Below, one piece after another: positions 3,982-20,000 of a stretch of DNA of 64,000 bases. Every line of letters begins with the position of its first letter. Position 1 is the stretch's first letter. A program made the position numbers and the translations under genes. Source of the stretch: Parabacteroides faecis. Lineage in GTDB: Bacteria; Bacteroidota; Bacteroidia; Bacteroidales; Tannerellaceae. Location of the stretch: NCBI RefSeq assembly GCF_014647375.1, contig NZ_BMPB01000003.1, positions 248,001 to 312,000 on the forward strand, in the 5' to 3' direction. The notes under the pieces are model-generated. The model was not told the origin of the DNA. It made no database searches and saw only the letters and a program-made list of their open reading frames with translations.

Positions 3982-4812
3982 ATGTTGAAAAGATGTGTTT
4001 TTTTACTATTCGTTCTACTCACCTCATGCGATCTGATAGACTACCATCCGTACGACGGAAGAATATCGTACAAAGAAGATAAAGATATTAATGAAACGAA
4101 TATCTTTAAGATACAGAATACCTGCCAAAATAAAGACACCATTCGTTTTGCCTTTACAGGCGACACACAACGCTGGTTGGACGAAACAAACGATTTCGTG
4201 AAGCATATCAATCAACAAGATTCCATCGATTTTGTCATTCATGGAGGAGACCTGACCGATTTCGGTATTAAGAAAGAATATATCTGGCAACATTCGATCC
4301 TGTCCAAACTGAAAATGCCTTATGTCGCCCTGATCGGTAATCATGATATTATTGGTAACGGGGAACTGGTATACGAAGACATGTACGGTCCCAAAAACTT
4401 TTCGTTCCGGGTCGGACCTTCACATAGTTATGGCGGAGGAGCCGCATTTCGTTTCATCTGCCTGAATACGAATGCCCTCGAATACGATTACTCTATCCCC
4501 GTACCTGATTTTTCCTTTATAAAGAGCGAACTGAACAGTACAACGGAAGATGATAAATGTACGATCTTTGTCATGCATGTCCCACCCGGAAGCGAGCAAT
4601 TCAATAATAATGTGGCAGATATCTTCCAGGAAAAGATTCGGGAATTCCCCAACCCTCTTTTTTGCCTGCATGCCCATGATCATAACTTTGCCGCCCGCGA
4701 GTTATTCAACGACGGGATTATTTATTATTGCTGCGACAATATCGGCAAACGTACCTATTTACTCTTTACCGTAACACCAGATAGCTACTCCTATGAAATC
4801 ATTAAATTTTAA
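3982..4812 (+). CDS. Calcineurin-like metallophosphoesterase lipoprotein
   Basis: A 276-residue protein with a short lipoprotein signal peptide ending in LLTSC (Cys16 lipidated). The dinuclear-metal signature is nearly complete: FTGDTQ, HGGDLTD, IGNHD, the His in VMHVPP, and HAHDH near the C terminus. It therefore probably hydrolyses a phosphoester in the periplasm or at the outer membrane; the substrate is unknown. It overlaps the next gene by 20 bp, so the two are co-translated. A Bacteroidetes-type promoter may lie in the upstream hairpin. There is no sequence clue linking it to the inositol genes. Confidence 0.86.
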   Translation: MLKRCVFLLFVLLTSCDLIDYHPYDGRISYKEDKDINETNIFKIQNTCQNKDTIRFAFTGDTQRWLDETNDFVKHINQQDSIDFVIHGGDLTDFGIKKEYIWQHSILSKLKMPYVALIGNHDIIGNGELVYEDMYGPKNFSFRVGPSHSYGGGAAFRFICLNTNALEYDYSIPVPDFSFIKSELNSTTEDDKCTIFVMHVPPGSEQFNNNVADIFQEKIREFPNPLFCLHAHDHNFAARELFNDGIIYYCCDNIGKRTYLLFTVTPDSYSYEIIKF

Positions 4813-5467
4813 AACATCCTTACTACTCATATTCATACTTTTATCATTTTACACAACAGCTCAGGACAGTATTCCGGCAATAACAGGGTATGAAAAACGC
4901 ATAGAAAGATACACGTCATTATGGGATCATCTGATTCCCCGATACAGCAAAATACAATTTGCCGGATCGATGGGAATGTTTTCCTTCGGAGTCGGCTGGA
5001 ACTATTACCGCCATCATTGGGAAACAGACCTTTTATTCGGCTTTGTCCCCAAAACCACCCGTAACCTGAAAGCAGAAAGTGCCAAAAAGCGTCATGCCAT
5101 GGCTACATTTACATTAAAGCAAAATTATATCCCCTGGAGAGTCCCATTGCACAAAAACATCGATTTCGAACCGTTAACAACAGGACTATACATAAACACT
5201 CTGCTCAACAGGCAGTTTTGGGTCCATAGCCCGGACAAATATCCCGAAGGATATTATTTTTTTTCAACCCGGATACGAACCCATATCTTTTTGGGCGAAC
5301 GTGTCACTTTCAAGTTCAATAATCCGGGACGCTGGCATAAATCTGTCACGTTATTTTATGAACTCAGCTCATGCGACCTATACATATTGAACAAAATCGG
5401 GAACAAATATCTAAAGCCGAAAGATTTTTTAAGTTTATCGTTTGGGTTAAAATTTCAGATACTGTAA
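4793..5467 (+). CDS. Outer-membrane beta-barrel-like protein of unknown function
   Basis: A 224-residue protein with a signal peptide (hydrophobic residues ~8-21, cleavage after YTTAQ). The mature part alternates aromatic and polar residues (SMGMFSFGVGWNYYRHHW, LLFGFV, FFSTRIRTHIFLG) and ends LSFGLKFQIL, all typical of small outer-membrane barrels. No family is recognised with certainty. The start overlaps the phosphoesterase gene by 20 bp, making the two a coupled exported pair. Confidence 0.68.
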   Translation: MKSLNFKTSLLLIFILLSFYTTAQDSIPAITGYEKRIERYTSLWDHLIPRYSKIQFAGSMGMFSFGVGWNYYRHHWETDLLFGFVPKTTRNLKAESAKKRHAMATFTLKQNYIPWRVPLHKNIDFEPLTTGLYINTLLNRQFWVHSPDKYPEGYYFFSTRIRTHIFLGERVTFKFNNPGRWHKSVTLFYELSSCDLYILNKIGNKYLKPKDFLSLSFGLKFQIL

Positions 5468-5619
5468 AAAGAAGTTTTTAATATATATAAAAAAGCGGCT
5501 CCTTATTGTAATATTTAACACATAATCACACTCTCCGAAAAACCGCAAAACTGTAACGACACTCAGTATTCATTTTAATAGATAAACAGCTATATCACAT
5601 AGATATAAGATACAAAGTA

Positions 5620-5653
5620 GTGACTAAAAAAAACGATCGTTTTTTTTAGTCAC
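5620..5653. repeat. Left palindromic repeat (IR-L) of the capsule promoter switch
   Basis: A perfect 34-bp palindrome: GTGACT, eight A, CGATCG, eight T, AGTCAC. Its right half (5635-5653) is the inverted copy of the left half of the second repeat (5761-5779) with 18 of 19 bases identical, as expected for recombination sites of an invertible segment. Confidence 0.8.
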
Positions 5654-5655
5654 AG

Positions 5656-5685
5656 CAAAGGTATACATTTTATTTATATCTGCAA
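5656..5685 (-). promoter_or_regulatory. Consensus promoter inside the invertible segment, pointing away from the capsule genes
   Basis: Read on the minus strand, TTG (5683-5685) is followed after exactly 19 bp by TACCTTTG (5656-5663), a full match to the Bacteroidetes TTG-N19-TAnnTTTG promoter. It reads leftward, away from the capsule operon. Inverting the 107 bp between the repeats would put the -7 box at about 5751-5758 reading rightward, roughly 100 bp before the first capsule gene. No comparable plus-strand promoter is seen in the segment, so the present orientation looks OFF. Confidence 0.75.
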
Positions 5686-5756
5686 CAAAGAAAAAGTAGT
5701 AAGATTCTAATAATCAAAAGATCCATAAAAATAATCCTAATTGTTAAAGCGAACAA

Positions 5757-5798
5757 AATAGTGACTAGAAAAAACGATCATTTTGGCTAGTCACTATT
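5757..5798. repeat. Right repeat (IR-R) of the capsule promoter switch
   Basis: An imperfect palindrome with 12-bp perfect arms, AATAGTGACTAG (5757-5768) and its complement (5787-5798), around AAAAAACGATCATTTTGG. The first 19 bases from 5761 match the inverted right arm of the left palindrome except for one A/G change. Confidence 0.78.
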
Positions 5799-5858
5799 TC
5801 GTCACCCTACCTCTGGGACTGACGAACTTTGTCGTATAAAAACAACTAGTATTAAATA

Positions 5859-6962
5859 ATGGCTTACCTACTTATAGCTATATCCTTACTTATATCAATA
5901 TTCCTATCAGCACTGATAATTCCGCGTGTTCTGGTAGTAGCATTCCGAAAAAAGTTATTTGACATACCTGATGAACGGAAAGTCCATAGTGGCATAATTC
6001 CCCGTTTAGGCGGTATCACTTTTGTCCCCACTATCCTCTTTGCCCTCTGTTTCACGACCGGTCTTCGTTATTTAATCGGTTATGAAATCCCTTCAGAGAG
6101 TCTACATTTCATAATTCCCGAATTTTATTTCATGGCCTGTGGCCTGACGTTATTGTATTTATCAGGTATAAAAGACGACCTAGTAGGACTACGCTATAGA
6201 AGTAAATTCGTCATACAGATCATAGCCGCCAGCCTCATTCCCCTATCCGGCTTATGGATCAACAACTTATACGGTATCTTCGGCATTAACGAACTTACCC
6301 CCTGGCTGGGAATCCCTTTTACAATCCTATTAACTGTATTTATCGTCAATGCAATCAACCTGATCGATGGCATCGACGGATTAGCCTCAGGACTCAGCAG
6401 TATATCGCTGTTAACTCTGGGTAGCATATACGTTTATTATAGTCAATGGATATACGCTACACTTGCGTTCTCCACTCTTGGAGTATTGCTTCCTTTCTTT
6501 TATTATAATGTATTTGGAAAAGTAGATCGCTGTAAAAAGATATTTATGGGTGATACCGGGAGCCTGACACTTGGTTATATTCTTGCATTCCTTGCCATAC
6601 GATATGCTTCATATAATCCTCAAGTCGCACCTTATTCAGAAGGAGCAATTATTGTAGCTTTTTCTACTTTAATTATTCCGATGTTTGACGTAATTCGTGT
6701 AGTGTTACTCCGTGCACGAACTCAGAAAAATCTATTTCAGCCAGATAAAAACCACATTCATCACAAATTCTTAGCCATGGGATTGAGCCCACGCAAAAGT
6801 ATGATTTTAATATTAGTAATGGCTGCAGGATTCAGTATTACAAATATTTTATTAATGCCATATGTAAACAATAACATATTATTTTTCACGGATATTTCAA
6901 TTTGGACCGGATTAAATATGTGGTTTGACAAAATTCGAAATATAAAAAATACAAATAATTAA
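5859..6962 (+). CDS. WecA/MraY-family undecaprenyl-phosphate sugar-1-phosphate transferase
   Basis: A 367-residue polytopic membrane protein (about ten hydrophobic segments) that starts glycan assembly by moving a HexNAc-1-phosphate from a UDP-sugar to undecaprenyl phosphate. Family motifs are in order: DERKVHSGIIPRLGG in the first cytoplasmic loop, KDDLVGL (DD motif), NAINLIDGIDGLASG, the FMGDTGSLTLGY aspartate loop, and HIHHKFLAMG. It is the first gene after the inverted-repeat promoter region, and its base composition is less AT-rich than the following genes. There is no UpxY/UpxZ-type regulator before it, unlike many B. fragilis capsule loci. Confidence 0.9.
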   Translation: MAYLLIAISLLISIFLSALIIPRVLVVAFRKKLFDIPDERKVHSGIIPRLGGITFVPTILFALCFTTGLRYLIGYEIPSESLHFIIPEFYFMACGLTLLYLSGIKDDLVGLRYRSKFVIQIIAASLIPLSGLWINNLYGIFGINELTPWLGIPFTILLTVFIVNAINLIDGIDGLASGLSSISLLTLGSIYVYYSQWIYATLAFSTLGVLLPFFYYNVFGKVDRCKKIFMGDTGSLTLGYILAFLAIRYASYNPQVAPYSEGAIIVAFSTLIIPMFDVIRVVLLRARTQKNLFQPDKNHIHHKFLAMGLSPRKSMILILVMAAGFSITNILLMPYVNNNILFFTDISIWTGLNMWFDKIRNIKNTNN

Positions 6963-6991
6963 TTTTTAAGATTCAAAAAAATAAATTCAAA

Positions 6992-8524
6992 ATGATAAAA
7001 TTACTCGATTGTACGCTAAGAGATGGTGGTTATTATACCAATTGGGATTTTGATAAGGATCTTGTTAATACATATATAGAAGCTACAAATATTTTACCTA
7101 TAGAATACCTAGAAATAGGATATCGAAATAATCCTTCTAAAGAATATTTAGGTAAATATGGCTATTGTCCTATCTTTGAATTAGAGGATTTACGAAAAAA
7201 ATCAAAAAAAAAATTAGCAATTATGCTAAATGAGAAAAATGTAAATCAAATAGATTTAAAGAAGCTTCTAAGTCCAATAAAAGAATTCATTAATATGATT
7301 AGACTGGCTGTTGACCCAGAAAATTTTGATCGCGCAGTACAACTGGCTGAATCAATAAAAAAAATGGGATTTGAAGTCGGGTTTAATACTATGTACATGT
7401 CAAGATGGAAAGAATATGATGATTTTATTCCAAAATTAAGAAATATAAATGGCATAGCAGATTTATTTTGCATGGTAGATTCTTATGGAGGAATAACCCC
7501 CTATGAAGTTCGTGAGACTATATCCATAATTAAAAATGAAATAAATTGTTCCATAGGTTTTCATGGACACAACAATTTAGAATTGGGATTAATAAATTCA
7601 TTGACCGCAATAGATTGTGATATTGATTATATTGATGCTACAATTTTAGGAATGGGAAGAGGGGCTGGAAATTTAAAAATGGAACTTATCCTTACTTATT
7701 TAAATAAAAGCAAAGGAATAGAAGTTGACTTTAATGTACTAGGAGAAGTTATATCAAATTTCAAAGAATTACATAAAAAATATGAATGGGGCACAAATTT
7801 ACCCTATATGCTTTCTGGCATTAATTCACTTCCTCAAAAAAATATCATGGATTGGGTTAATAATAGGGTATATTCTTTCAATAGTATTGTTCGTGCTTTA
7901 GATAATAAAAGAGAAAAAAAATTAGACAATGCAAAATACCCATTACTAAAAACTAATATTTTCAAAAAAGTTTTAATTATTGGTGGTGGTAAAAATAGCC
8001 TAGCACACTTAGCAGGCATAAATGCCTTTATAGAAAAAAATCATTCAATAGCTATCATTCATGCAACATCAAGATATGCATTCCATTATAAAAATATCAA
8101 TGTTCCACAATTTTATTGTTTAGTAGGAACAGAAGGTAAACGTTTATCAAAAAATTTAAGTGCCTATCCTTTTAATGGAACATGTATTCTTCCACCTTAT
8201 CCAAGAATAATGGGGACTGATGTTCCTGAGTTTGTTCAGAGTAATACTTTTGAATTAAAAAAAATCTGTTTCACGGACAACTATTTAGATTCATGTACTG
8301 CAATAGCCCTACAAACAGCTCTCGAATTAAAAGCAGAAGAAGTGTACATGATAGGATATGATGGATATCCAGATAATGTCTTATCAGAAAAAGAAATGGC
8401 TTTAACTAATGAAAATAGAAATTTATTTACAGATTTTTATCAAACTACAGGAAAAAAAATAATGTCATTAACTCCTTCATTATATAAAGAAATAGAAGTC
8501 AGATCCGTATATCAATATATTTAA
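6992..8524 (+). CDS. DRE-TIM aldolase-like enzyme with C-terminal Rossmann-like domain
   Basis: A 510-residue two-domain protein. Residues ~1-300 are an HMGL/DRE-TIM barrel: LLDCTLRDGGYYTNW at the N terminus and GFHGHNNLELG with the metal-binding His pair; relatives include 4-hydroxy-2-oxovalerate aldolase. Residues ~325-510 start with KVLIIGGGKNS and end with a YMIGYDGYP segment, resembling a nucleotide- or sugar-binding MptE/DUF115-like fold. Three bases separate it from a CMP-sugar synthetase gene, so it probably builds the keto-acid sugar that the synthetase activates. The barrel assignment is firm; the product and the C-terminal role are inference. The gene is strongly AT-rich. Confidence 0.75.
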   Translation: MIKLLDCTLRDGGYYTNWDFDKDLVNTYIEATNILPIEYLEIGYRNNPSKEYLGKYGYCPIFELEDLRKKSKKKLAIMLNEKNVNQIDLKKLLSPIKEFINMIRLAVDPENFDRAVQLAESIKKMGFEVGFNTMYMSRWKEYDDFIPKLRNINGIADLFCMVDSYGGITPYEVRETISIIKNEINCSIGFHGHNNLELGLINSLTAIDCDIDYIDATILGMGRGAGNLKMELILTYLNKSKGIEVDFNVLGEVISNFKELHKKYEWGTNLPYMLSGINSLPQKNIMDWVNNRVYSFNSIVRALDNKREKKLDNAKYPLLKTNIFKKVLIIGGGKNSLAHLAGINAFIEKNHSIAIIHATSRYAFHYKNINVPQFYCLVGTEGKRLSKNLSAYPFNGTCILPPYPRIMGTDVPEFVQSNTFELKKICFTDNYLDSCTAIALQTALELKAEEVYMIGYDGYPDNVLSEKEMALTNENRNLFTDFYQTTGKKIMSLTPSLYKEIEVRSVYQYI

Positions 8525-8526
8525 TC

Positions 8527-9213
8527 ATGGATAAAGTTGCATTTTTCCTACCTACACGAAAAGGTAGTCAACGCGTAAAAAATAAAAATACTCGTCCTTT
8601 TGCTCAAATAAAAGGAGGACTATTTGAAAATAAAATATCACAACTTATACAAACCAAAAACATTGATGAAATAATATTATCAACTAATGATGAAGACTGT
8701 ATTTTAATTGCACAAAAATTTCTATCACAATCAGAAAAAATCAAAATAGATATTCGCCCAACAAAGCTTTGTTTAGATTCAACTAATCTACAAGATTTAA
8801 TAGCCTATGTGCCAACACTTACAAATGCAGAGCACATTCTTTGGGGACATGTAACAACTCCAATGGTAGATGCACATATATATGACCAGGCTGTCAAATT
8901 ATATCTATCGAATCTAGAATTAGGATATGACTCACTAGTTGGAGTTGTTGGATTTAGGAACTTTCTATTAAATAATAAAGGAGAGATTATCAACAATACA
9001 ACCTCACTACCTTGGCCACGAACTCAAGATCTAGAAAAATTATATGAAATCAATCACTCTATTTTTTTAGCCAAACGACATATATATGAAGAACAATTAA
9101 ATCGTATTGGAAAAAAACCTTATCTATTTGAAATGAACAAAATAAGTTCATTTGATATTGATTGGGAAGAAGATTTTAAAATAGCAGAAATAATCTATAA
9201 TATCTTTAAATAA
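8527..9213 (+). CDS. NeuA-like CMP-sugar synthetase (acylneuraminate cytidylyltransferase family)
   Basis: A 228-residue enzyme. The N-terminal PTRKGSQRVKNKNTRPF matches the CTP-binding signature of NeuA/KdsB-type cytidylyltransferases; TTPMVDA and the C-terminal FDIDWEEDFKIAE carry the Mg-binding Asp residues. It activates a nonulosonic-type sugar with CMP. No sialic acid synthase (NeuB) is present nearby; the preceding aldolase-like gene may replace it. A GT52-type (sialyltransferase-like) gene two places downstream fits a CMP-sugar donor. Confidence 0.85.
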   Translation: MDKVAFFLPTRKGSQRVKNKNTRPFAQIKGGLFENKISQLIQTKNIDEIILSTNDEDCILIAQKFLSQSEKIKIDIRPTKLCLDSTNLQDLIAYVPTLTNAEHILWGHVTTPMVDAHIYDQAVKLYLSNLELGYDSLVGVVGFRNFLLNNKGEIINNTTSLPWPRTQDLEKLYEINHSIFLAKRHIYEEQLNRIGKKPYLFEMNKISSFDIDWEEDFKIAEIIYNIFK

Positions 9214-9241
9214 GGATATCACATAGTTGGTAATATATTAT

Positions 9242-10708
9242 ATGAATAAATATAGTAGATTAGGAAAAAATACAGGTCTAATAATAGTAGGGAATATAGG
9301 AAGTAGATTCATTTCATTCTTCATGTTACCCTTTTATACAACATGGCTATCAGTAAAAGATTATGGAATTATTGATTTAATTCAAGTTTATACATCTTTT
9401 ATATTAAGTATTATTTCATGCTGCATTTATGAATCTATTTTTGTATTTCCAAAGGGACAAAAAAAGGAAAAACAAACAACTTATTTTTCTTCAGGAATAT
9501 ATTATACTATCCTTTTATTTGCAATAACAGGAATATTATCTTTCATATTTCATTTCATATTAGTTAATAACCATGTTAAGAATTTTTACACTACATATTC
9601 CTTGTATTTATATATCATTATATTTTTATCTTTTACCCAAACTTACACACAACAGTTCTCTAGAAGTCTTAATCAAATGAATATATATGCATTATGCGGT
9701 ATCATTTATACAGCATCAATGGCTATTTCTTCTATTATCTTGTTACCAATATATGGAGTATATGGATTTTTAATTGCCCAAATAGTATCTTTAGCAATAT
9801 CTACTATATATACCTTTCTATTTGGAAAAATGTATAAGTTTATCAATTGGAGTTACATACAAAAAAGGGAATACATAGAAATGCTAAAATATGCACTACC
9901 TCTAATTCCTAATGCATTAATTTGGTGGCTTATATTAAGTTTTAATCGTCCTGTTATAGAAAGCTATATTGGACTAAAAGCTGTAGGGCTATTTGCTGTT
10001 GCATGTAAACTACCTAATATGATAGGAGCTTTCTATAACATGTTTGGTACATCTTGGCAAATTTCAGTTCTTGAAGAATTCAACAACTCGGATTATACAT
10101 ATTTCTTTAATAGAGTGTGTCGATTTATTGTTCTTGGATTAGTTTTTATTTCATCTTTAATGTGTATAACAAGTAAATGGATAATTTCTCTATTGACAAG
10201 TGTTGAATTTATTGATGCCTGGATCTACATACCGATTTTATCATTAGCTATACTTTTCTCAAATATATCAAATTTTATTGGCGCTACATTTTCAGCAGTA
10301 AAACAGAGTAAGTATTATTTCTATTCAGGTATATGGGGAGCCATATCTAGTATAGTTTTCAATTTCACTTTAATACCTACTTATGGATTATATGGTGCTG
10401 CAATATCAATGGTATTAGCAAATTTTATAATTCTCATTTCAAGAACGATATATTCATGGAAATATGTCAAAATACAAAATTTATTTTCATATGTGATAAT
10501 GATTGGTATCAATATTATAATTGCGATATCTGTTTGTATAATTGACAACTTATTAATAAAATCAATTTCAATAGTCATTTTTTTATCAATATTAATACTA
10601 GCAAACAAATCTGTTATTAGAGATCTATACAATAATCTAATATTACATTTTAATCAAAATAAAAAACAAATCCAAAATGAATCTATTCAAAAAAACTTCA
10701 AAGAATAA
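9242..10708 (+). CDS. Wzx-type polysaccharide flippase
   Basis: A 488-residue membrane protein with 12-14 hydrophobic segments, typical of MATE/MOP-superfamily O-antigen and capsule flippases. NTGLIIVGNIGSRFISFFMLPFYT at the N terminus resembles the first helix of the family. It would move the undecaprenyl-linked repeat unit across the inner membrane. The ATG at 9242 is preferred to an in-frame TTG at 9227. The end overlaps the next gene by 32 bp. AT-rich like its neighbours. Confidence 0.88.
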   Translation: MNKYSRLGKNTGLIIVGNIGSRFISFFMLPFYTTWLSVKDYGIIDLIQVYTSFILSIISCCIYESIFVFPKGQKKEKQTTYFSSGIYYTILLFAITGILSFIFHFILVNNHVKNFYTTYSLYLYIIIFLSFTQTYTQQFSRSLNQMNIYALCGIIYTASMAISSIILLPIYGVYGFLIAQIVSLAISTIYTFLFGKMYKFINWSYIQKREYIEMLKYALPLIPNALIWWLILSFNRPVIESYIGLKAVGLFAVACKLPNMIGAFYNMFGTSWQISVLEEFNNSDYTYFFNRVCRFIVLGLVFISSLMCITSKWIISLLTSVEFIDAWIYIPILSLAILFSNISNFIGATFSAVKQSKYYFYSGIWGAISSIVFNFTLIPTYGLYGAAISMVLANFIILISRTIYSWKYVKIQNLFSYVIMIGINIIIAISVCIIDNLLIKSISIVIFLSILILANKSVIRDLYNNLILHFNQNKKQIQNESIQKNFKE

Positions 10709-11744
10709 ATTTAATATAAAAAATGTATGTATAGTAGATACTGTATATGCTTTATTAATTTATTTATTAAAATCAGATATAAATGATATTCATGATACTT
10801 ATTTCTTTGTATCAGAAGGTATACATCCATCTATTCAAAACAATTTAACACATAAATATATCTATAAAAAAAAGCATTTACCGAATTTAATATCAGAAAT
10901 ATATGACTTAATTAGATTAAGAATATTCAAATACATTCGTTGGCCATTTATAAAAGATTCTTTAATATATTCGCAAGATCATTTACCCTATTCCATTCCA
11001 TTAGTTGGAAATAAATCTTATTCATATATTGAAGATGCTCCATATATTTATTCTATCATAAAAGCTAATAATTGGCTCGATAATAAAATCAAGTACTGGA
11101 ATGATCGATATTATATAAAAAAAATAAATCTTTATATATTTGGCAAAACATATAAAAAGCCAGTTGGACTCAGTAATTCTTGCAAAGAAATAATACTTTC
11201 AGTTAAAGATATAGCACCATTTTGGACAAATAAAAAAATAACGATTATTGATATTTTTAAAATTTGGAGTAATAGCCCAGAAGAAAAAAAAAAGTTAATA
11301 TATAAGATATATAATATTACAAATGAAGATATAGAAGAGCTAAAAAGTAAATCAATAATAATACTTACACAAAGATTTGTTACAGATGGAATATTAACAG
11401 AAGAAGAACAAATAAGAATCTATAAAAAAATAATTTCATATTATGATTCAAACAAAATCTTAATTAAACCACACCCTAGAGATAAGATAGATTACAAAAA
11501 ATATTTTAACAATATTTCATGTTTCAACAAAATTATTCCATCACAATTATTCGATCTATTAGGTATTAGATTTGATAAGGCTGTTACAATTTGTACTTCT
11601 GCTGTATTTGATTTTTCATATAAAATAGAAATAGATTGGTTTGGTTCAAAAATTCATCCAAAAATTTTTGATCAAGAAGGAGAAATAGACATCTCACAAA
11701 TCAACACATCAGGCAATAAAATAAATTTCATAAATATCAATTAA
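10677..11744 (+). CDS. GT52-like glycosyltransferase (sialyltransferase-like)
   Basis: A 355-residue GT-B-type protein. The N-terminal NVCIVDTVYALLIYLLKS strand-loop and the C-terminal ILIKPHPRDKIDY, followed by SAVFDFSYK, resemble family 52 transferases such as lipooligosaccharide sialyltransferases. Those use CMP-activated sugars, matching the CMP-sugar synthetase two genes upstream. Translation overlaps the flippase gene by 32 bp. I am fairly sure of the glycosyltransferase class and less sure of the exact family. Confidence 0.7.
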   Translation: MNLFKKTSKNKFNIKNVCIVDTVYALLIYLLKSDINDIHDTYFFVSEGIHPSIQNNLTHKYIYKKKHLPNLISEIYDLIRLRIFKYIRWPFIKDSLIYSQDHLPYSIPLVGNKSYSYIEDAPYIYSIIKANNWLDNKIKYWNDRYYIKKINLYIFGKTYKKPVGLSNSCKEIILSVKDIAPFWTNKKITIIDIFKIWSNSPEEKKKLIYKIYNITNEDIEELKSKSIIILTQRFVTDGILTEEEQIRIYKKIISYYDSNKILIKPHPRDKIDYKKYFNNISCFNKIIPSQLFDLLGIRFDKAVTICTSAVFDFSYKIEIDWFGSKIHPKIFDQEGEIDISQINTSGNKINFININ

Positions 11745-11813
11745 TACAACAATAAAAAGATAATTTAACATATTAAAAGTATTATACAATTATATTATCA
11801 CAAATAGTATTAT

Positions 11814-13040
11814 ATGAATAAAATAGCAATAATCAGCCCCTGTTTTTTACCTATACCGGCATTAAAAGGAGGAGCTGTAGAAACTCTCATAGAAATTTAT
11901 TTAAACAAAAATGAAGTGAATCCTTGCGCAGAATATGTTGTTTTCACTATCTATGATAGAAATGCAATAATTGAAAGTCGTAAATATAAATATAGCAAAT
12001 TTGAATATATCCACAGAAACACAATTAGGCACAAATTTTTAACAACATATAATAGGATATTAGACCTACTCTGGAATAGATATAAATTCAACATTCCATA
12101 TATTGGAGATGATTTTATTATTTCATGCATCAAAATAATGAAATACAAATACAAATTTGATACAATAATCATTGAAAATACACCTTTATATGCATTACTA
12201 TTAAAAAAACAATACAATATACCAATTAATCTACATTTACATAATGATATTTTATATGCCAATACATATCAGGCTAAAAACATCATAAAAAGTTTATCGC
12301 ATATTTGGAGTACAAGTAATTATATAAAAAAACGTGTTTGTTCAATTCCAGTTAATTCAAAATATAACTGTAAAATATCTGTCCTATACAATGGTATTGA
12401 TATCAATCGATTTAAATCACAAATAAGTATAAATGAAAAAAATGAATTAAAAAACAAATTATCTATAAGCGAAAAAGATAAAATCTTATTATTTGTAGGT
12501 CGAATAGATCGAACAAAAGGTGTAAAAGAATTAATAGAAGCATTTGTAAGATTACCTAAAAGCAATCTAAAACTATTAATATTAGGAGCATCTTTTTTTT
12601 CGAGCAAAGAAAAAACATTATATATCAAAGAGCTTGAAAAAATGATATATCCAATAAAAAATAATATTTGTTTCACAGGATATATATCCAATGAATATAT
12701 ACACAAATATTATCAAATTGCAGATATAGTTATAGTTCCATCAATCTGTGAAGAAGCTTTTTCATTAACTTGCTTAGAAGCATTAGCATCTGGATGTCCA
12801 CTTATAATATCAGATTCGGGAGGAATGATTGAAGTTGTAGACGAAGAATCTGCCATTATAGTTGATAGAAAAAAGGAATTCAGCAAAACGTTAGCTAAAC
12901 AGATATATGTTTTAATCAATGATAAGGAGAAAAGAGAAAAAATGAAAAAAGCAGCTCTATCGAGAGCTCAAATGTTCACAGATACAAATTATTATAGAAA
13001 TTTTCTTGAATTACTTTCAGACATTGTTTATTTTAAATAA
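11814..13040 (+). CDS. GT4-family glycosyltransferase
   Basis: A 408-residue GT-B enzyme. The N-terminal IISPCFLPIPALKGGAVETL forms the acceptor-side glycine loop; the C-terminal domain has FVGRIDRTKGVKELIEAF and the donor-binding EX7E segment in EEAFSLTCLEALASGCP. It adds one sugar of the capsule repeat unit on the cytoplasmic face of the inner membrane; the sugar cannot be told from sequence. It is preceded by a 69-bp AT-rich gap and followed after 8 bp by a GT8 gene. Confidence 0.88.
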   Translation: MNKIAIISPCFLPIPALKGGAVETLIEIYLNKNEVNPCAEYVVFTIYDRNAIIESRKYKYSKFEYIHRNTIRHKFLTTYNRILDLLWNRYKFNIPYIGDDFIISCIKIMKYKYKFDTIIIENTPLYALLLKKQYNIPINLHLHNDILYANTYQAKNIIKSLSHIWSTSNYIKKRVCSIPVNSKYNCKISVLYNGIDINRFKSQISINEKNELKNKLSISEKDKILLFVGRIDRTKGVKELIEAFVRLPKSNLKLLILGASFFSSKEKTLYIKELEKMIYPIKNNICFTGYISNEYIHKYYQIADIVIVPSICEEAFSLTCLEALASGCPLIISDSGGMIEVVDEESAIIVDRKKEFSKTLAKQIYVLINDKEKREKMKKAALSRAQMFTDTNYYRNFLELLSDIVYFK

Positions 13041-13048
13041 TTAATATA

Positions 13049-13996
13049 ATGATTATTGCATGTGCAACAGACGATAATTTTATACAACATTGCAGTGTAA
13101 TGTTGACATCTTTATTCGAAAATAATAAGAAAGAAGATATCGTAGTCTACTTACTAACAGAAGGACTGAAAGAAATTAGCCAAAGATATATTAAGAATAT
13201 TGAACTAATTTATAAATGCAAAATACAAATTTGTAATATTAATATAGCACTTTTAAATGATTTTCCATTATTTCCTGGTGATCATGTGTCTATTGTTACA
13301 TATTTTCGATTATTATTACCAGATATCATAGATAACAAAATATCAAAAATATTATATTTAGATTCTGATATAATAATAACAGGCTCTTTAAAACCCTTAT
13401 GGGATATAAAGTTAACAGCTCCAATTGCTGCTGTTCCTGAGTCTACAAGTTATCAACCTGAAAACTATAAACGGTTACAGTATGATAGTAAATACTCATA
13501 TTTTAATGCAGGAGTCATACTCATCAATTTAGAATACTGGAGATCACATCAATTGATTGATCGCTTTCGCGATTATTTAATAAAATATCCTGAGAGAGTT
13601 CGCTGGCATGATCAAGATATCCTTAATGCTGTATTACACAACAATTGGCTTAGACTTCCTATTAGGTGGAATGCTCTAGAAGGTTATTTTCATACATCTT
13701 TTTACAGAAATACTAAGTTAAATAAAAAGAATAAAATAGAAATAATAAATGAAATAACTAATCCAATAATTGTGCATTATTGCGCAAAAAACAAACCTTG
13801 GTGCTGGGGAAATAATCACCCACTAAAAAATTTATATTTCACATATTTAGAAAAAACTGAATGGAAGTATTATAATCCTAAACTAACAATATCAAAGGAT
13901 AACATTAAAATAATCATTAGAAACATATTAGTTTTATTAAGAATTAAAAAGACATTATTTATAAACATCCAACAAAAGGATAATAATCAGATATGA
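13049..13996 (+). CDS. GT8-family (LgtC-like) glycosyltransferase
   Basis: A 315-residue GT-A enzyme. MIIACATDDNFIQHCSVMLTSL is the nucleotide-binding first strand, ILYLDSDIII (~101-110) contains the DxD metal site, FNAGVILINLEYWR follows, and HYCAKNKPW is the conserved C-terminal His/Lys region. GT8 members usually transfer galactose or glucose from UDP-sugar with retention. It lies within the capsule operon. Confidence 0.9.
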   Translation: MIIACATDDNFIQHCSVMLTSLFENNKKEDIVVYLLTEGLKEISQRYIKNIELIYKCKIQICNINIALLNDFPLFPGDHVSIVTYFRLLLPDIIDNKISKILYLDSDIIITGSLKPLWDIKLTAPIAAVPESTSYQPENYKRLQYDSKYSYFNAGVILINLEYWRSHQLIDRFRDYLIKYPERVRWHDQDILNAVLHNNWLRLPIRWNALEGYFHTSFYRNTKLNKKNKIEIINEITNPIIVHYCAKNKPWCWGNNHPLKNLYFTYLEKTEWKYYNPKLTISKDNIKIIIRNILVLLRIKKTLFINIQQKDNNQI

Positions 13997-14029
13997 TAAT
14001 ATGTACAATAACCATTATGTAATAATCAA

Positions 14030-15268
14030 ATGATAAAAAAAATATTATTTTTAGCCCCATACAGTGTTCCAGTAAATAATCCTGAAGCAATATGTAACGC
14101 TAAATTATTAAAAATATTAAGCGAAGCAGGATATGAGATTGATGTTATAAGTAAAAATAATAATCATGTTTATATACCTAATACCAATGACAATATTTTT
14201 ATTGAAAATGTTTTTTATATAAAACAGTTCATTTTAAAAAACAAAATAAATATCAAAACAATTATTGATCATATCAAAGTATTTATAAAAACTGGATATG
14301 TATACAAGGGAGCACATTGGGCTTTATATGCTATAAATCATTCTGAAACACTAATAAAAGATAAAAAATATGATTTAATAATGTCTCGAAGTCCCTCTGC
14401 TGAATTAGCAGCTTTATATCTTTCTAAAAAATACAAAATTAAATGGATCGCCAATTGGAACGATCCTTATCCTGATATTTGTTATCCTCCTCCCTATGGA
14501 CATGGTCCTAAGGCAAAACTAGGAGGTTTACAAAAAAAATTATTACAAAAGGTTTCACAGCAAGCTAATATTCATACTTTTCCATCCAAGAGGCTAAGAG
14601 ACTATATGTTTCAATACATGAGTATAAAAGATATAAATAGTACTTTTATAATACCACACGCATGCATAGATAACCTATTTAATTATAAAGAAAAGGAAAA
14701 ATCATCCATATTACGTATAATTCATTCTGGAAATATAACATACCCTCGTTCTCCAATATCGCTATTTAAAGGCCTTAATTTATTTAAAGAACAAGCTCCC
14801 AACGCCAATATAGAGATAACCTTTATTGGAAAACAAGATGAGAATTTTACAAATCTAATAAAAAATTACAATCTTGATGACAATATAAATATCATTACTC
14901 CTAAAGATTATATTACAAACCTAGAAATAATGTCCAAATTTGATTTAGCTCTATTAATTGAAGCAAATATGGAAGAAGGCATATTTTTACCGACCAAATT
15001 AGGCGACTACATGCAATGCAGATTACCAATATGGACAATTAGTCCAAAAACAGGTGAAGCAAATGATTTATACAAAGACAGAAGTATATTATACTTTTCA
15101 GATGTTTCATCACATGAAAGTATTGCAGACTCTTTAAAAATAATTTATTCTGATTATCTTACTAAGAAAAGTCATTTTCAAAGAAGAAATATAATAGAAG
15201 AATATCAGCAAGATTACATTTTAAATTTATACAAAAAAATATTTAATATAATTGAAAATAATCAATAA
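14030..15268 (+). CDS. Glycosyltransferase, GT4-like GT-B fold
   Basis: A 412-residue protein. It starts KKILFLAPYSVPVNNPEA, typical of the GT4 N-terminal domain, has the WNDPYPDICYPPPYG stretch seen in some capsule transferases, and a C-terminal domain with IIHSGNITYPRSP and a donor site around LPTKLGDYMQCRLPIW. The EX7E motif is less clear than in its neighbours. Likely one linkage of the repeat unit; specificity unknown. Confidence 0.78.
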   Translation: MIKKILFLAPYSVPVNNPEAICNAKLLKILSEAGYEIDVISKNNNHVYIPNTNDNIFIENVFYIKQFILKNKINIKTIIDHIKVFIKTGYVYKGAHWALYAINHSETLIKDKKYDLIMSRSPSAELAALYLSKKYKIKWIANWNDPYPDICYPPPYGHGPKAKLGGLQKKLLQKVSQQANIHTFPSKRLRDYMFQYMSIKDINSTFIIPHACIDNLFNYKEKEKSSILRIIHSGNITYPRSPISLFKGLNLFKEQAPNANIEITFIGKQDENFTNLIKNYNLDDNINIITPKDYITNLEIMSKFDLALLIEANMEEGIFLPTKLGDYMQCRLPIWTISPKTGEANDLYKDRSILYFSDVSSHESIADSLKIIYSDYLTKKSHFQRRNIIEEYQQDYILNLYKKIFNIIENNQ

Positions 15269-15271
15269 TTA

Positions 15272-16423
15272 ATGGAATACTATTTATTGATAACAATCTG
15301 TTTCTTGGCACATTATATACAAAATAGTATAAGAGAAAATTTAAGAAACACATTCAAAAGTACAATAACATTACTTATTGCTATTTTTTTATGTTTTGGT
15401 TATATGACAGGAACAGACTGGAGGACTTATGAAAATAGTTATCAATGGATTACATTTGATAAATTTCTTTCAATTATACTATTTTGGGAACCTGGATTCA
15501 TAATTTACACTGCTATATTTCACTTATTAGAAATTGATTTTTGGATATATTTAATATTTACAAAATTACTAACATTCAGCATATTTTACTGGTTTTTAAA
15601 TAAATATAGTGAAAAACGTTATTATTTTCTTATAATGACATTCTTTGTAACTTTATATGGATTATATTTTTGGATTGACAACCCATTAAGGAATTTGATA
15701 GCATTTTCCATTTTTTTGCTAAGTATACCAGCCATATTAGAAAAGAATAAATGGAAATATTTTTCTATTATATTTATAGCTATAACATTCCATTATTCGT
15801 CAATATTATTAATTCCACTATATTGGATTTTATCATCAAGAATAAAATCAAAAACAATAATTATATTTTACATAATATTCAGTTTAATCTTTTTAGATAT
15901 AAAAATATTATTTTCAATAATTAACACTGCATTCAGTTGGTTTCCAATAATAACAAACAAAATTGTATTTTATTCCCAAAATATAAATGAAGAAAGTGGT
16001 AAAATTATTTCATTTGGATATTTAATACATAATATATTCTTTATAATATTATTACTTAGCAGAAAAAAAATTGAAACAATTAAATACGGACATCTCATAT
16101 TTAATTCATCGATTTTATACATTTTTTTATTTAGACTTGGACTTAGTTTTAATGTATTCATGAGAATTGCAATGTATTTTGCTTTAATATATAGCATTTC
16201 TGTTATATATATTCTTTATAACTTAGAGAATAAATCAAAAATAATTTACCAATTATATCTATTACTAATTATAACAATGATCACATGGTCTTCTATAACT
16301 AAAGATAGTAGATATATACCATACTCTAGTTATCTAAGTTACATTTTTAGAGAGAAACCTAGTTATTATTATCGTTATTACTATAATGACAACAATAGTT
16401 CTTATCCACGAATTTACCAATAA
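15272..16423 (+). CDS. EpsG/Wzy-type polysaccharide polymerase
   Basis: A 383-residue, very hydrophobic protein with about ten membrane segments. GYMTGTDWRTYENSYQ after the second helix is the hallmark of EpsG-family proteins, which polymerise lipid-linked repeat units in the periplasm. A Tyr-rich tail (YYYRYYYND) ends the protein. It starts 3 bp after the previous gene and shares one base with the next. Among the most AT-rich genes here. Confidence 0.83.
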   Translation: MEYYLLITICFLAHYIQNSIRENLRNTFKSTITLLIAIFLCFGYMTGTDWRTYENSYQWITFDKFLSIILFWEPGFIIYTAIFHLLEIDFWIYLIFTKLLTFSIFYWFLNKYSEKRYYFLIMTFFVTLYGLYFWIDNPLRNLIAFSIFLLSIPAILEKNKWKYFSIIFIAITFHYSSILLIPLYWILSSRIKSKTIIIFYIIFSLIFLDIKILFSIINTAFSWFPIITNKIVFYSQNINEESGKIISFGYLIHNIFFIILLLSRKKIETIKYGHLIFNSSILYIFLFRLGLSFNVFMRIAMYFALIYSISVIYILYNLENKSKIIYQLYLLLIITMITWSSITKDSRYIPYSSYLSYIFREKPSYYYRYYYNDNNSSYPRIYQ

Positions 16424-17505
16424 TGAAATTAGCAATTGTAATTAATGATATAACTCCTGCTGCAGGAACAGAAAGAATTACGATTATGTTATGTAACACT
16501 TTTATAAAAAAAGGGCATGACGTAGTTATTATATCTTGTTATAAAGAATTTGAAAAAATATCCTATGAAGTATCAAGTAAGGCAAAAATAATTTATATAA
16601 ACAAAAATAAACCAAAGAATAAAATAATTTATTGGACATTAGATCGAATAAAAATAATAAATAGATTAAATAAGATATTAAAAAATAATAACCTTGATAT
16701 TATTATAGGACAAAGTTTTCCGATAAATTTTCTTCTGTATTTTTGTAATATTTCTCACAAAATAATCGCATGTGAACATATATTTTATAATTATTATCCA
16801 AAAGCAATAAGAATACTAAGAAAATATATATACAAATCATTTTACAAAGTAGTTGTTTTAACAGATAAAGATAAATTAAAATTTAGCGAACATATAAATA
16901 ATGTATATGCAATTCCAAACATCAATTTATTCAAAAGTGATAAAAAATCAGATTTAAAAAATAAAAAAATAATATCAGTAGGAAGACTAGTTAAACAAAA
17001 AGGATATGATATACTAATCAATGCAACTAAAGATATTTTCATAGAACATCCTGATTGGGAACTAAACATTTATGGAACAGGTAAATGTTTTAATGAATTA
17101 AAATCTCAAATTGAAGATTTATCATTACAAAATAATATATTCTTGAGAGGAAAATCAATAAATATAAAAAATGAATACTTAAAGTCATCCATATATGTTA
17201 TGTCATCTCGTTTTGAAGGTTTTGGATTAGTTCTTGTAGAAGCTGCAGTGTGTGGATTACCTATTATTTCATTTGATTGTCCTAATGGACCTAGTGATGT
17301 TTTATCTCCAGATTTGGGAATATTAGTCAAAAACGGAGATATTGATGGATTAAAGAATGCAATTTCTGAATTAATAAACAATGAAGATTTGAGAATTAAA
17401 TATGCAAAAAAGAGTAAAATAATTGAACAAAAATATTCCGAGGAAATCATATATAAGAAATGGGATATTTTATTCAGCTCTTCAGAGCAACAACAAGACT
17501 TTTAA
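16423..17505 (+). CDS. GT4-family glycosyltransferase
   Basis: A 360-residue GT-B enzyme. The N-terminal IVINDITPAAGTERIT is the usual loop of capsule GT4 enzymes; ISVGRLVKQKGYDILI and SSRFEGFGLVLVEAAVCGLP (EX7E) mark the donor domain. The start codon overlaps the polymerase stop codon by one base. Probably adds an internal sugar of the repeat unit. Confidence 0.9.
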   Translation: MKLAIVINDITPAAGTERITIMLCNTFIKKGHDVVIISCYKEFEKISYEVSSKAKIIYINKNKPKNKIIYWTLDRIKIINRLNKILKNNNLDIIIGQSFPINFLLYFCNISHKIIACEHIFYNYYPKAIRILRKYIYKSFYKVVVLTDKDKLKFSEHINNVYAIPNINLFKSDKKSDLKNKKIISVGRLVKQKGYDILINATKDIFIEHPDWELNIYGTGKCFNELKSQIEDLSLQNNIFLRGKSINIKNEYLKSSIYVMSSRFEGFGLVLVEAAVCGLPIISFDCPNGPSDVLSPDLGILVKNGDIDGLKNAISELINNEDLRIKYAKKSKIIEQKYSEEIIYKKWDILFSSSEQQQDF

Positions 17506-17590
17506 GCACCAGTGTTGATGTTTTCAAAGTTTATTCAAAACACATTTTTCTCTCAATATATATTTACAAACAACATAATACGATAATTTC

Positions 17591-18742
17591 ATGAAGAAAA
17601 TAATGTTTATTTTCGGTACTCGCCCTGAAGCAATAAAGATGGCACCTCTAATAAAGAAATTACAGAAGTGTCCAGATCAGTTTCAAACTATCGTCTGTGT
17701 AACAGGCCAACATCGTAAATTGTTAGATCAAGTTCTTAATATATTTGACATACATCCTGATTATGATCTAAATATCATGAAACAAGGACAGGATTTATAT
17801 GATATTACAGCTAAAGTGTTAACAGGTATGCGCGATATTTTGAAAAAAGCACAACCAGATGCAGTTATTGTACATGGTGATACAACAACTTCGATGGCAT
17901 CATCACTTGCAGCTTTTTACCTGCAAATACCTGTTGGGCATGTTGAAGCTGGACTTAGAACGCATAATATCTACAGTCCTTGGCCTGAGGAAATGAATCG
18001 TTTAATAACAGGAAGAATAGCTACATTGCATTTTGCACCAACAACATTAAGCCATCAAAATCTTCTTAATGAAGGAATAAATAAAGATTCCATTTTTATA
18101 ACAGGAAATACAGTAATTGATGCGTTGTATATGGCTATTGATAAAATAAAAAAGAGCGAAGAATTAAAAAATAAATTAATAATAGAATTAAAAAATGCAG
18201 GATATGAAATAAAAGATCGTCCTCTAGTTCTTATTACAGGTCATCGCCGCGAAAACTTTGGAGAAAATTTTATTCAAATATGCAAAGCAATAAAAACTCT
18301 TGTTGAAAAATATCCATGTGTAGATTTTGTATATCCTATGCATTTAAATCCCAATGTACGTAAACCTATTTATGAAATTTTCGGAAACTCCAATCTACCC
18401 AATATATTCTTTATAGAACCTTTAGAATATTTACCCTTTATATATTTAATGAAAAGTTCTACAATAGTACTAACTGACAGTGGTGGCATTCAAGAAGAAG
18501 CACCAGGGCTAGGTAAACCAGTATTGGTAATGCGTGATACAACAGAACGTCCAGAAGCAGTGGAAGCTGGGACAGTAAAATTAGTAGGAACAGATTACGA
18601 AAAGATAGTGAAAGAAACATCTCGTTTACTAGATGATCCAATTTATTATAATCATATGAGTAAAGCAATCAATCCCTATGGAGATGGATTTGCTTGTGAT
18701 AGAATTATAAATATATTCATAAAAGAAATAGTAAATAATTAA
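17591..18742 (+). CDS. wecB: UDP-GlcNAc 2-epimerase, non-hydrolysing
   Basis: A 383-residue enzyme that interconverts UDP-GlcNAc and UDP-ManNAc. Family signatures are clear: FGTRPEAIKMAPLI at the N terminus, VHGDTTTSMA, GHVEAGLRTHNIYSPWPEE, TGHRRENFG and the UDP-binding TDSGGIQEEAPGLGKPVLV. The length is standard. Its composition is closer to chromosomal average than the flanking transferases, consistent with a conserved housekeeping-type module. No WecC dehydrogenase is present, so ManNAc itself or a derivative may enter the capsule. Confidence 0.95.
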   Translation: MKKIMFIFGTRPEAIKMAPLIKKLQKCPDQFQTIVCVTGQHRKLLDQVLNIFDIHPDYDLNIMKQGQDLYDITAKVLTGMRDILKKAQPDAVIVHGDTTTSMASSLAAFYLQIPVGHVEAGLRTHNIYSPWPEEMNRLITGRIATLHFAPTTLSHQNLLNEGINKDSIFITGNTVIDALYMAIDKIKKSEELKNKLIIELKNAGYEIKDRPLVLITGHRRENFGENFIQICKAIKTLVEKYPCVDFVYPMHLNPNVRKPIYEIFGNSNLPNIFFIEPLEYLPFIYLMKSSTIVLTDSGGIQEEAPGLGKPVLVMRDTTERPEAVEAGTVKLVGTDYEKIVKETSRLLDDPIYYNHMSKAINPYGDGFACDRIINIFIKEIVNN

Positions 18743-18863
18743 ACTATAGCCAACTTTTATTACAAAATGATATAATTATTTTGAAAATTTCTCAGATAAA
18801 TAATATCTAATACATTAATTAACAACATAAACTGTCTTTAATTATTGATGAATATTTAATCAT

Positions 18864-20000
18864 ATGATAAAAGTAAAAATATTACATATCTCAAAATACT
18901 ATCCGCCATATCGTGGTGGCATTGAAGATGTTTGTTATAATATTGTAAATAATACATCTAACCATTTTGAACAAAATGTTATTTGTTTCAATAACAATAA
19001 TCATAATGAGGTAACTAAAATAAATGGAATAGAAATCGTTCGAGTCGGAATTTTAAAAAAAATAGCAAATCAACCCATATCTATTTCCTTTTATAGAATA
19101 TTAAAAGAATATATCAAAACATACAATCCTGATATAATTCATCTACATCTTCCTAATCCATTAATTAGTTTATTTGTTCTCATATTAATACCTAAATCTG
19201 TAAAATTACTACTTCATTGGCATTCTGATATTGTTGCACAAAAGAATATATACAGATTATTCTCACCAATTGAACAATATTTATTAAGAAGAGCAAATAA
19301 GATTTTAGTTACAAGTCCACTGTATCTGGAAGATTCAAAACCATTATCCAAATTTCATAAGAAAACAGTCATTATACCGAATATGATTTCATTGGAAAAA
19401 ATGAGATTAGATAAAGAATCTGAAGAGAAAATCAACAAACTGATTTCTTCATATGATAGAAAAAAAATAGTATTCTTTTTAGGACGACATGTAGCTTATA
19501 AAGGAATTGAATATCTTATAAAATCAGAAAAATATATAAAATCAGATTGTATAATTCTAATAGCAGGTGAAGGACCTATAACTCCTCAATTAAAAAAAAT
19601 AACAAATTCTAACAGAATAAAATTCATTGGTCGCATTACAGATGAAGATATAAAAATATACATGAATGCAGCATCTGTATTTGCATTTCCTTCAATAACA
19701 AAGAATGAAGCTTTCGGTGTTGTTTTAGCTGAAGCGATGTATTCAAAAGCTGTACCTGTAACCTTTACTATAAAAGGTTCTGGAGTAAATTGGGTTAATA
19801 TAAATAATATAACAGGAATTGAAGTCGAAAACAGAAATGAAAAAGAATTTGGTAAAGCTATTGATCTATTATTGAAGAATGACAAATTGAGATCAAAATT
19901 AGCCAACAATGCATATAAACGAGTACAAGATAATTTCACTATGGAAACTATTAAGAATAAAATAGAATTCATCTACTCTACTTTACTAAAAGAAATATAA
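18864..20000 (+). CDS. GT4-family glycosyltransferase
   Basis: A 378-residue GT-B protein. ILHISKYYPPYRGGIEDVC is the N-terminal loop; FFLGRHVAYKGIEYLIKS and FGVVLAEAMYSKAVP (EX7E) mark the donor domain. It is the last capsule biosynthesis gene before a hairpin terminator, separated from wecB by 121 bp of AT-rich DNA in which I see no gene. Confidence 0.9.
   Translation: MIKVKILHISKYYPPYRGGIEDVCYNIVNNTSNHFEQNVICFNNNNHNEVTKINGIEIVRVGILKKIANQPISISFYRILKEYIKTYNPDIIHLHLPNPLISLFVLILIPKSVKLLLHWHSDIVAQKNIYRLFSPIEQYLLRRANKILVTSPLYLEDSKPLSKFHKKTVIIPNMISLEKMRLDKESEEKINKLISSYDRKKIVFFLGRHVAYKGIEYLIKSEKYIKSDCIILIAGEGPITPQLKKITNSNRIKFIGRITDEDIKIYMNAASVFAFPSITKNEAFGVVLAEAMYSKAVPVTFTIKGSGVNWVNINNITGIEVENRNEKEFGKAIDLLLKNDKLRSKLANNAYKRVQDNFTMETIKNKIEFIYSTLLKEI

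Follow-up and report, generated by a model that had tools for sequence, protein, structure and literature searches.

The window analysed here, the whole 64-kb stretch of Parabacteroides faecis DNA (G000:C3:248001-312000), very probably carries a capsule promoter of the Mpi-invertible type whose present copy is OFF, as judged from its sequence. The palindrome pair that brackets this promoter is one of a genome-wide family of paired sites, and the element joins a kind already known in related bacteria, the Mpi-type invertible promoters. The original prediction, which placed a capsule promoter in an invertible segment and called it OFF, is upheld by the paired-site family, by the presence of Mpi in the genome, by a central dinucleotide rule that holds in 74/74 pairs among the matches listed, and by flipped homologues. 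G000 denotes the P. faecis genome itself (6.66 Mb), C3 the contig of the window, and L numbers the loci that were fetched.

The predicted switch and the capsule operon

The features of the locus are as follows.

4793..5467, plus strand: gene before the switch, no Pfam family
5620..5653: predicted left recombination site, a perfect 34-bp dyad (17/17), centre AT at 5636-5637
5637..5777: segment expected to invert, between the site centres; inferred from the two-base overlap rule and inverted in silico
5656..5685, minus strand: Bacteroidales-type promoter TTG-N19-TACCTTTG, 2 nt from the left site and directed away from the capsule operon (OFF)
5761..5794: predicted right recombination site, an imperfect 34-bp dyad with 3/17 half-site mismatches, centre AT at 5777-5778
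5859..6962, plus strand: first capsule gene, a WecA-like PNPT transferase (PF00953, 118 bits)
5859..20000, plus strand: polysaccharide (capsule-type) operon, the expected target in the ON orientation; extent predicted from strand and spacing

The original description of two related palindromes bracketing 107 bp, the left one a perfect 34 bp, agrees with the coordinates and with the 17/17 count, and the sequence likewise gives 18 of 19 inverted matches between the right half of the left dyad and the left half of the right dyad. In the 64-kb window, 5620-5653 is the sole spacerless palindrome with an arm of at least 10; the longest arm in 20 mononucleotide shuffles of the window was 7-11. What had been overlooked is that the unit is the whole dyad, which recurs across the genome.

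A strict promoter pattern (TTG-N17..23-TAnnTTTG) matched 14 times in the whole window on both strands (12 distinct -7 boxes) and only once within 5400-5900, at 5656-5685, where the -7 box also pairs with a second TTG three bases further up. This single strict match, on the minus strand, confirms the earlier claim of a full-consensus promoter (TTG-N19) that reads away from the capsule genes. In the present orientation it would read antisense towards the 3' end of the gene at 4793..5467. When the segment was inverted in silico, the promoter came to lie 100 nt upstream of the start codon of wecA, aimed at the first capsule gene as had been proposed, and there was no second strict promoter within 5600-5870. 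Weak -7 boxes with one mismatch are present at 5808 and 5824, between the right site and wecA, so that low transcription in the OFF state is possible. A sigma-70 (-35/-10) scan gave no match, and the only Rfam match was an unrelated S15 leader on the minus strand within wecA, which at 23 bits falls below the gathering score of 39.5.

The right site ends 64 bp before the wecA start codon. The operon also encodes a cytidylyltransferase, a flippase, EpsG, glycosyltransferases and a UDP-GlcNAc 2-epimerase. Pfam families for the synthesis of polysaccharides or sugar nucleotides matched eight of the nine operon genes scanned; the second gene is HMGL-like. No NusG/UpxY-family gene was found on C3. 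The genome contains two such genes, NusG on C9 and a UpxY-family gene on C2 (119.2 bits, cut-off 100); no other member of the UpxY family was found in the genome. In capsule loci of the UpxY/UpxZ type upxY heads the operon, whereas here the switch itself adjoins wecA. The absence of an UpxY-type gene from the locus was seen correctly in the original prediction, but it is not unusual: annotated UpxY is reported in 2 of 12 capsule loci of P. distasonis (PMC12118408), and the absence is thus likely to characterize the group and not this locus in particular. A switch directly before wecA suggests that no UpxY layer is needed at the locus for the capsule to switch. In gut Bacteroidales, sensitivity to phages is governed by capsule switching (PMC12118408).

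In the mechanism that we favor, Mpi would bind each 34-bp dyad as a dimer and bring the two sites together. It would cut at the central AT (5636-5637 and 5777-5778), and rejoining after rotation would invert the segment. In the present orientation the promoter at 5656-5685 would face away, leaving the wecA operon with no other strict consensus promoter nearby (OFF); in the inverted orientation it would face wecA from 100 nt upstream of the start codon (ON). We infer that Mpi acts at this switch, that the copy flips in cells, that transcription follows orientation and that one enzyme serves all regions of the family.

Paired sites, their central two bases and the invertase

A search of the P. 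faecis genome with the dyad pattern gave 17 forward and 19 reverse matches, compared to 0 and 0 for a reversed control pattern. The dyad pattern was present in 17 of 39 genomes of the genus, none of which matched the control, and in 2 of 149 genomes drawn from the order, both of this genus; in the order-wide search the control gave one forward and one reverse match, in G061. Sites were then scanned in 100 fetched loci (583,619 bases), chosen by match to the window's sequence or to the pattern, with a consensus whose middle was left free. The central two bases were N in both the scan and the genus pattern. Since the scan consensus is dyad-symmetric, the symmetry of the pairs is partly by construction. 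The scan yielded at least 74 distinct site pairs in 17 genomes of the genus, at a spacing of 104-152 bp, and at least 18 of these are in the P. faecis genome. Shuffled loci passed through the same scan gave 2 single sites and 0 pairs.

Other likely targets of the switch family include sigma-70-like factors, a TonB-dependent receptor and a DUF6261 protein (L054, L058, L059, L066), as well as large proteins starting MNKKFSTL, one of which ends in DUF6383. The consensus promoter was not found in the L054 and L059 segments. In L057 (4954-5137; G000:C13:233953-234136) one promoter segment has a wecA operon to its left and a WbpM-type operon to its right, and to judge from this layout inversion would turn expression from one capsule operon to the other; in relatives, the wecA loci L074, L083 and L092 lack the sites. 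One site sequence reads out a whole regulon in Parabacteroides, with orientation callable from assemblies alone.

Unpaired sites occupied 12 distinct places (13 rows) among the matches listed, and 8 of the 12 have a degenerate partner with a matching centre. One lone intact site, L061:2686-2719 (G000:C12), has a relative in G019 in which the pair is present. The left flanks of the two are non-homologous, the promoter segment is absent or replaced in L061, and the gene that neighbors the G019 pair sits elsewhere in the P. faecis genome. The left side of L061 was not found in three relatives, in a search run without a positive control. We considered whether deletion between polarity-free sites leaves lone sites behind, and do not claim this.

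Among the matches listed, the central two bases of the partners match in inverted register in 74/74 pairs. The centre is self-complementary (AT or TA) in 41 of these 74 and is then uninformative on polarity, as is, by itself, the AT of the window's own sites. All 33 pairs with a non-self-complementary centre (TT 20, GT 6, AA 6, AC 1, among the matches listed) match in the inverted register and none in the direct one; 10,000 permutations of the same matches gave a mean of 14.3 and a maximum of 25 inverted matches. By homology the listed pairs form 22 clusters, of which the largest has 39 pairs. Informative centres occur in 13 of the clusters, and the matching count is therefore not one inherited event. 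Neighboring positions agree less (position 15 in 64/74, 16 in 72/74, 19 in 68/74 and 20 in 67/74), and positions 17 and 18 are the sole variable ones to agree in all 74 pairs among the matches listed.

A strict match confined to two bases fits a serine recombinase, with its two-base overlap, and not a tyrosine recombinase, whose invertons have an overlap of 6-8 bp identical between partners; such an overlap was not seen here. In hix, a single core change blocks joining in the inverted orientation (PMC4817059). Palindromic recombination sites had been called unusual in the original prediction, and this we would revise: serine recombinases bind partly palindromic crossover sites as dimers, for which a dyad is normal (PMC11607074). 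The two-base rule was not found in print for Mpi sites in the literature searched, which excludes supplementary files and most subscription papers. The central dinucleotide provides a sequence test for the class of enzyme that flips a switch. Self-complementary centres raise the question of how deletion is avoided; base pairing of such an overlap would not distinguish inversion from deletion, and the choice of inversion would then depend on some other factor.

The genome encodes one protein that exceeds the cut-off of the Mpi model, a serine invertase of 200 aa at G000:C13:214216-214815 (NCBIfam NF009949, 323 bits, cut-off 272). Two paralogues, R51 (G000:C2:147145-147729) and R52 (G000:C7:327450-328034), score 188 and 185 bits, below that cut-off. 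In the alignment both carry T or Y at what we take to be the position of the catalytic serine in Mpi, and they may bind similar sites without being active. Besides these three, which were compared with Mpi or its model, the genome encodes a large serine recombinase (a 621-aa frame on C20).

Proteins related to Mpi (E of 0.001 or better) were detected in 36 of the 39 genomes of the genus, at 60% identity or more in 26. Of the 17 genomes with sites 16 have a match at this level, and of the 22 without sites 10 do (Fisher p 0.0018, in a test that ignores relatedness, with a 60% threshold set after the data were seen and with partial matches in G003 and G009). This co-occurrence weakly favors Mpi as the enzyme of the family. 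G004, an assembly of 490 contigs, has sites and no good Mpi match, while G017 and G050 have Mpi and no site match by pattern, possibly because their sites are divergent.

The same promoter might be inverted by a different recombinase, either R51 or R52 or a tyrosine recombinase. This alternative overlaps with the Mpi reading in everything save the enzyme, and we consider it unlikely. Both paralogues are present in the genome and match the Mpi model, albeit below its cut-off, yet neither has the serine at the assumed catalytic position, and in G002, G023 and G047, which have sites, a single Mpi-like protein was the only match of the Mpi search. Tyrosine recombinase Tsr19 does flip other Bacteroides promoters (PMC4747536), but the restriction of strict matching to two of the variable positions argues against an enzyme of that class.

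A lone dyad with one side of its core broken was observed 56-57 bp before the start codon of mpi (L056:4873-4906, G000:C13). It is identical in G000, G024, G022 and G019 (L056, L115-L118), and a weaker resemblance occurs 56-58 bp before mpi in G041, G014, G013, G021, G042 and G012. Among 30 mpi loci, 9 were without a start by the ORF filter, and the readable 21 comprised 4 with the intact dyad, 6 with a weaker one and 11 with none. The intact dyad has 3 mismatches to the consensus. The weaker ones have 7-8, near the chance level of the script (8-11), so what speaks for these six is their equal distance and shared letters. From its position the lone dyad may serve self-regulation of Mpi, which was not found in print in the same literature (supplementary files and most subscription papers excluded). 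Tentatively, and with some doubt, we suggest a Parabacteroides Mpi regulon that regulates itself, Mpi binding the lone dyad without recombining, that uses polarity-free sites and in which L057 swaps capsule operons.

Orientation of the switch and its homologues

The original prediction had pointed to related genomes for the flipped state. That state was found for homologous switches, including one capsule locus, but not for the window's own switch, whose orthologue in P. goldsteinii is likewise OFF (scores of 64.5 as is and 17.0 inverted). Switching of the window's copy would follow from the behavior of its family. The promoter points away from wecA in all six site-bearing Parabacteroides loci examined (the window, L057, L060, L073, L146 and L166).

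Orientation was the same in 17 of 23 homologous comparisons and flipped in six; three of the flipped cases depend mainly on a single homologous flank. At a WbpM-like capsule locus, the inner segments of L253 (G014) and L105 (G013) scored 89.0 inverted and 19.5 as is, and those of L104 (G021) and L105 scored 91.0 and 9.5; both flanks were homologous in each comparison. L249 is opposite in orientation to L240, L241, L250 and L251 (91.0 inverted and 2.5 as is against L240; 147.0 and 7.0 against L250), with three of the four comparisons resting mainly on one flank. L065 of P. faecis and L087 of G022, which fell below the threshold of the script for the 23 comparisons and were scored separately, gave 105.5 inverted and 10.5 as is. 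This switch sits between what we take, by resemblance, to be surE and an MNKKFSTL-type gene. Two wecA loci on one contig of Bacteroides cutis (L159 and L160) have right flanks identical in 200/200 positions and unrelated left flanks, and their invertons are in opposite orientation (222 inverted, 29 as is).

Forty-five pairs among the matches listed have a promoter and a single target, and by simple ORF finding 40 of these were OFF and 5 ON (40:2 for strict promoters). The other 29 pairs were left out for a two-sided target (15, including L087, which is ON relative to L065), the lack of a consensus promoter (9) or the lack of a gene (5). The ON calls with a weak promoter were L067, L104 and L105, of which L104 faces a doubtful ORF and points away from its WbpM gene.

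These counts bear on whether the window holds a formerly invertible switch now locked OFF, for example by decay of its right site. Such a history, which shares all but present activity with the active Mpi switch, seems quite unlikely. In the right site the half-sites differ at 3 positions and the family consensus is missed at 3, and the P. goldsteinii orthologue is OFF as well. Many family sites have as many mismatches, however, the match between the window's two centres is retained, and most of the family is OFF (40 of the 45 scored among the matches listed).

It is very unlikely that a DNA-binding regulator uses the dyads as operators and that nothing inverts. Perfect dyads beside a promoter do resemble repressor sites, and the lone dyad upstream of mpi may well be an operator, but flipped homologues and a pair-specific inverted match of the centre (33/33 among the matches listed) are unexpected of operators. 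Transcription terminators or 5' hairpins flanking a promoter of fixed orientation seem extremely improbable: the minus strand does have a single terminator-like match, at 5653-5620 (shuffles average 0.1), but its stem is A/T-rich, with 4 G-C pairs of 15, the transcript would be expected to start inside the dyad and leave the stem incomplete, and flips in homologues speak against a fixed orientation.

Comparison with known invertible promoters

The Mpi-type switch to which we assign the element has inverted sites that bracket a promoter, an Mpi-family gene in the same genome and matching central two bases. In B. fragilis one serine invertase, Mpi, serves 13 regions including seven capsule promoters, PSA and six others (PMC4747536). 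The window resembles these capsule promoters in that inverted sites flank a promoter heading a capsule operon and in the -7 consensus TAnnTTTG (PMC4747536).

An AAACG-NN-CGTTT-like core whose centre TT is matched in inverted register precedes wecA in 5 of 18 further loci (L149, L150, L151, L159 and L160). All five are from Bacteroides, L149 and L150 from B. fragilis, and the remaining 13 of L147-L164 showed no pair. The outer arms of the sites differ, being TGAC in the Parabacteroides switch and TGTTT-like in Bacteroides. In the five Bacteroides loci the switch is followed by an upxY-like gene, then by another small gene, presumably upxZ by position, and then by wecA, whereas in the P. faecis window wecA comes directly after the switch. 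UpxY was confirmed for all three proteins tested (L149, L151 and L160), each above the cut-off.

In the Hin system the invertase gene lies inside the invertible segment, unlike mpi, which is far from the window's switch. The likeness to the Hin/hix flagellar switch of Salmonella is in the small serine invertase and in core bases that must match (PMC4817059, PMC11607074).

Phase-variable glycoprotein promoters were described in P. distasonis (Fletcher et al. 2007, as cited in PMC10773633). They share genus and principle with the family analysed here, many pairs of which precede large MNKKFSTL-type proteins; we would guess that these proteins are the published glycoprotein family. The window's member differs from those promoters in its target, which is predicted to be a capsule operon.
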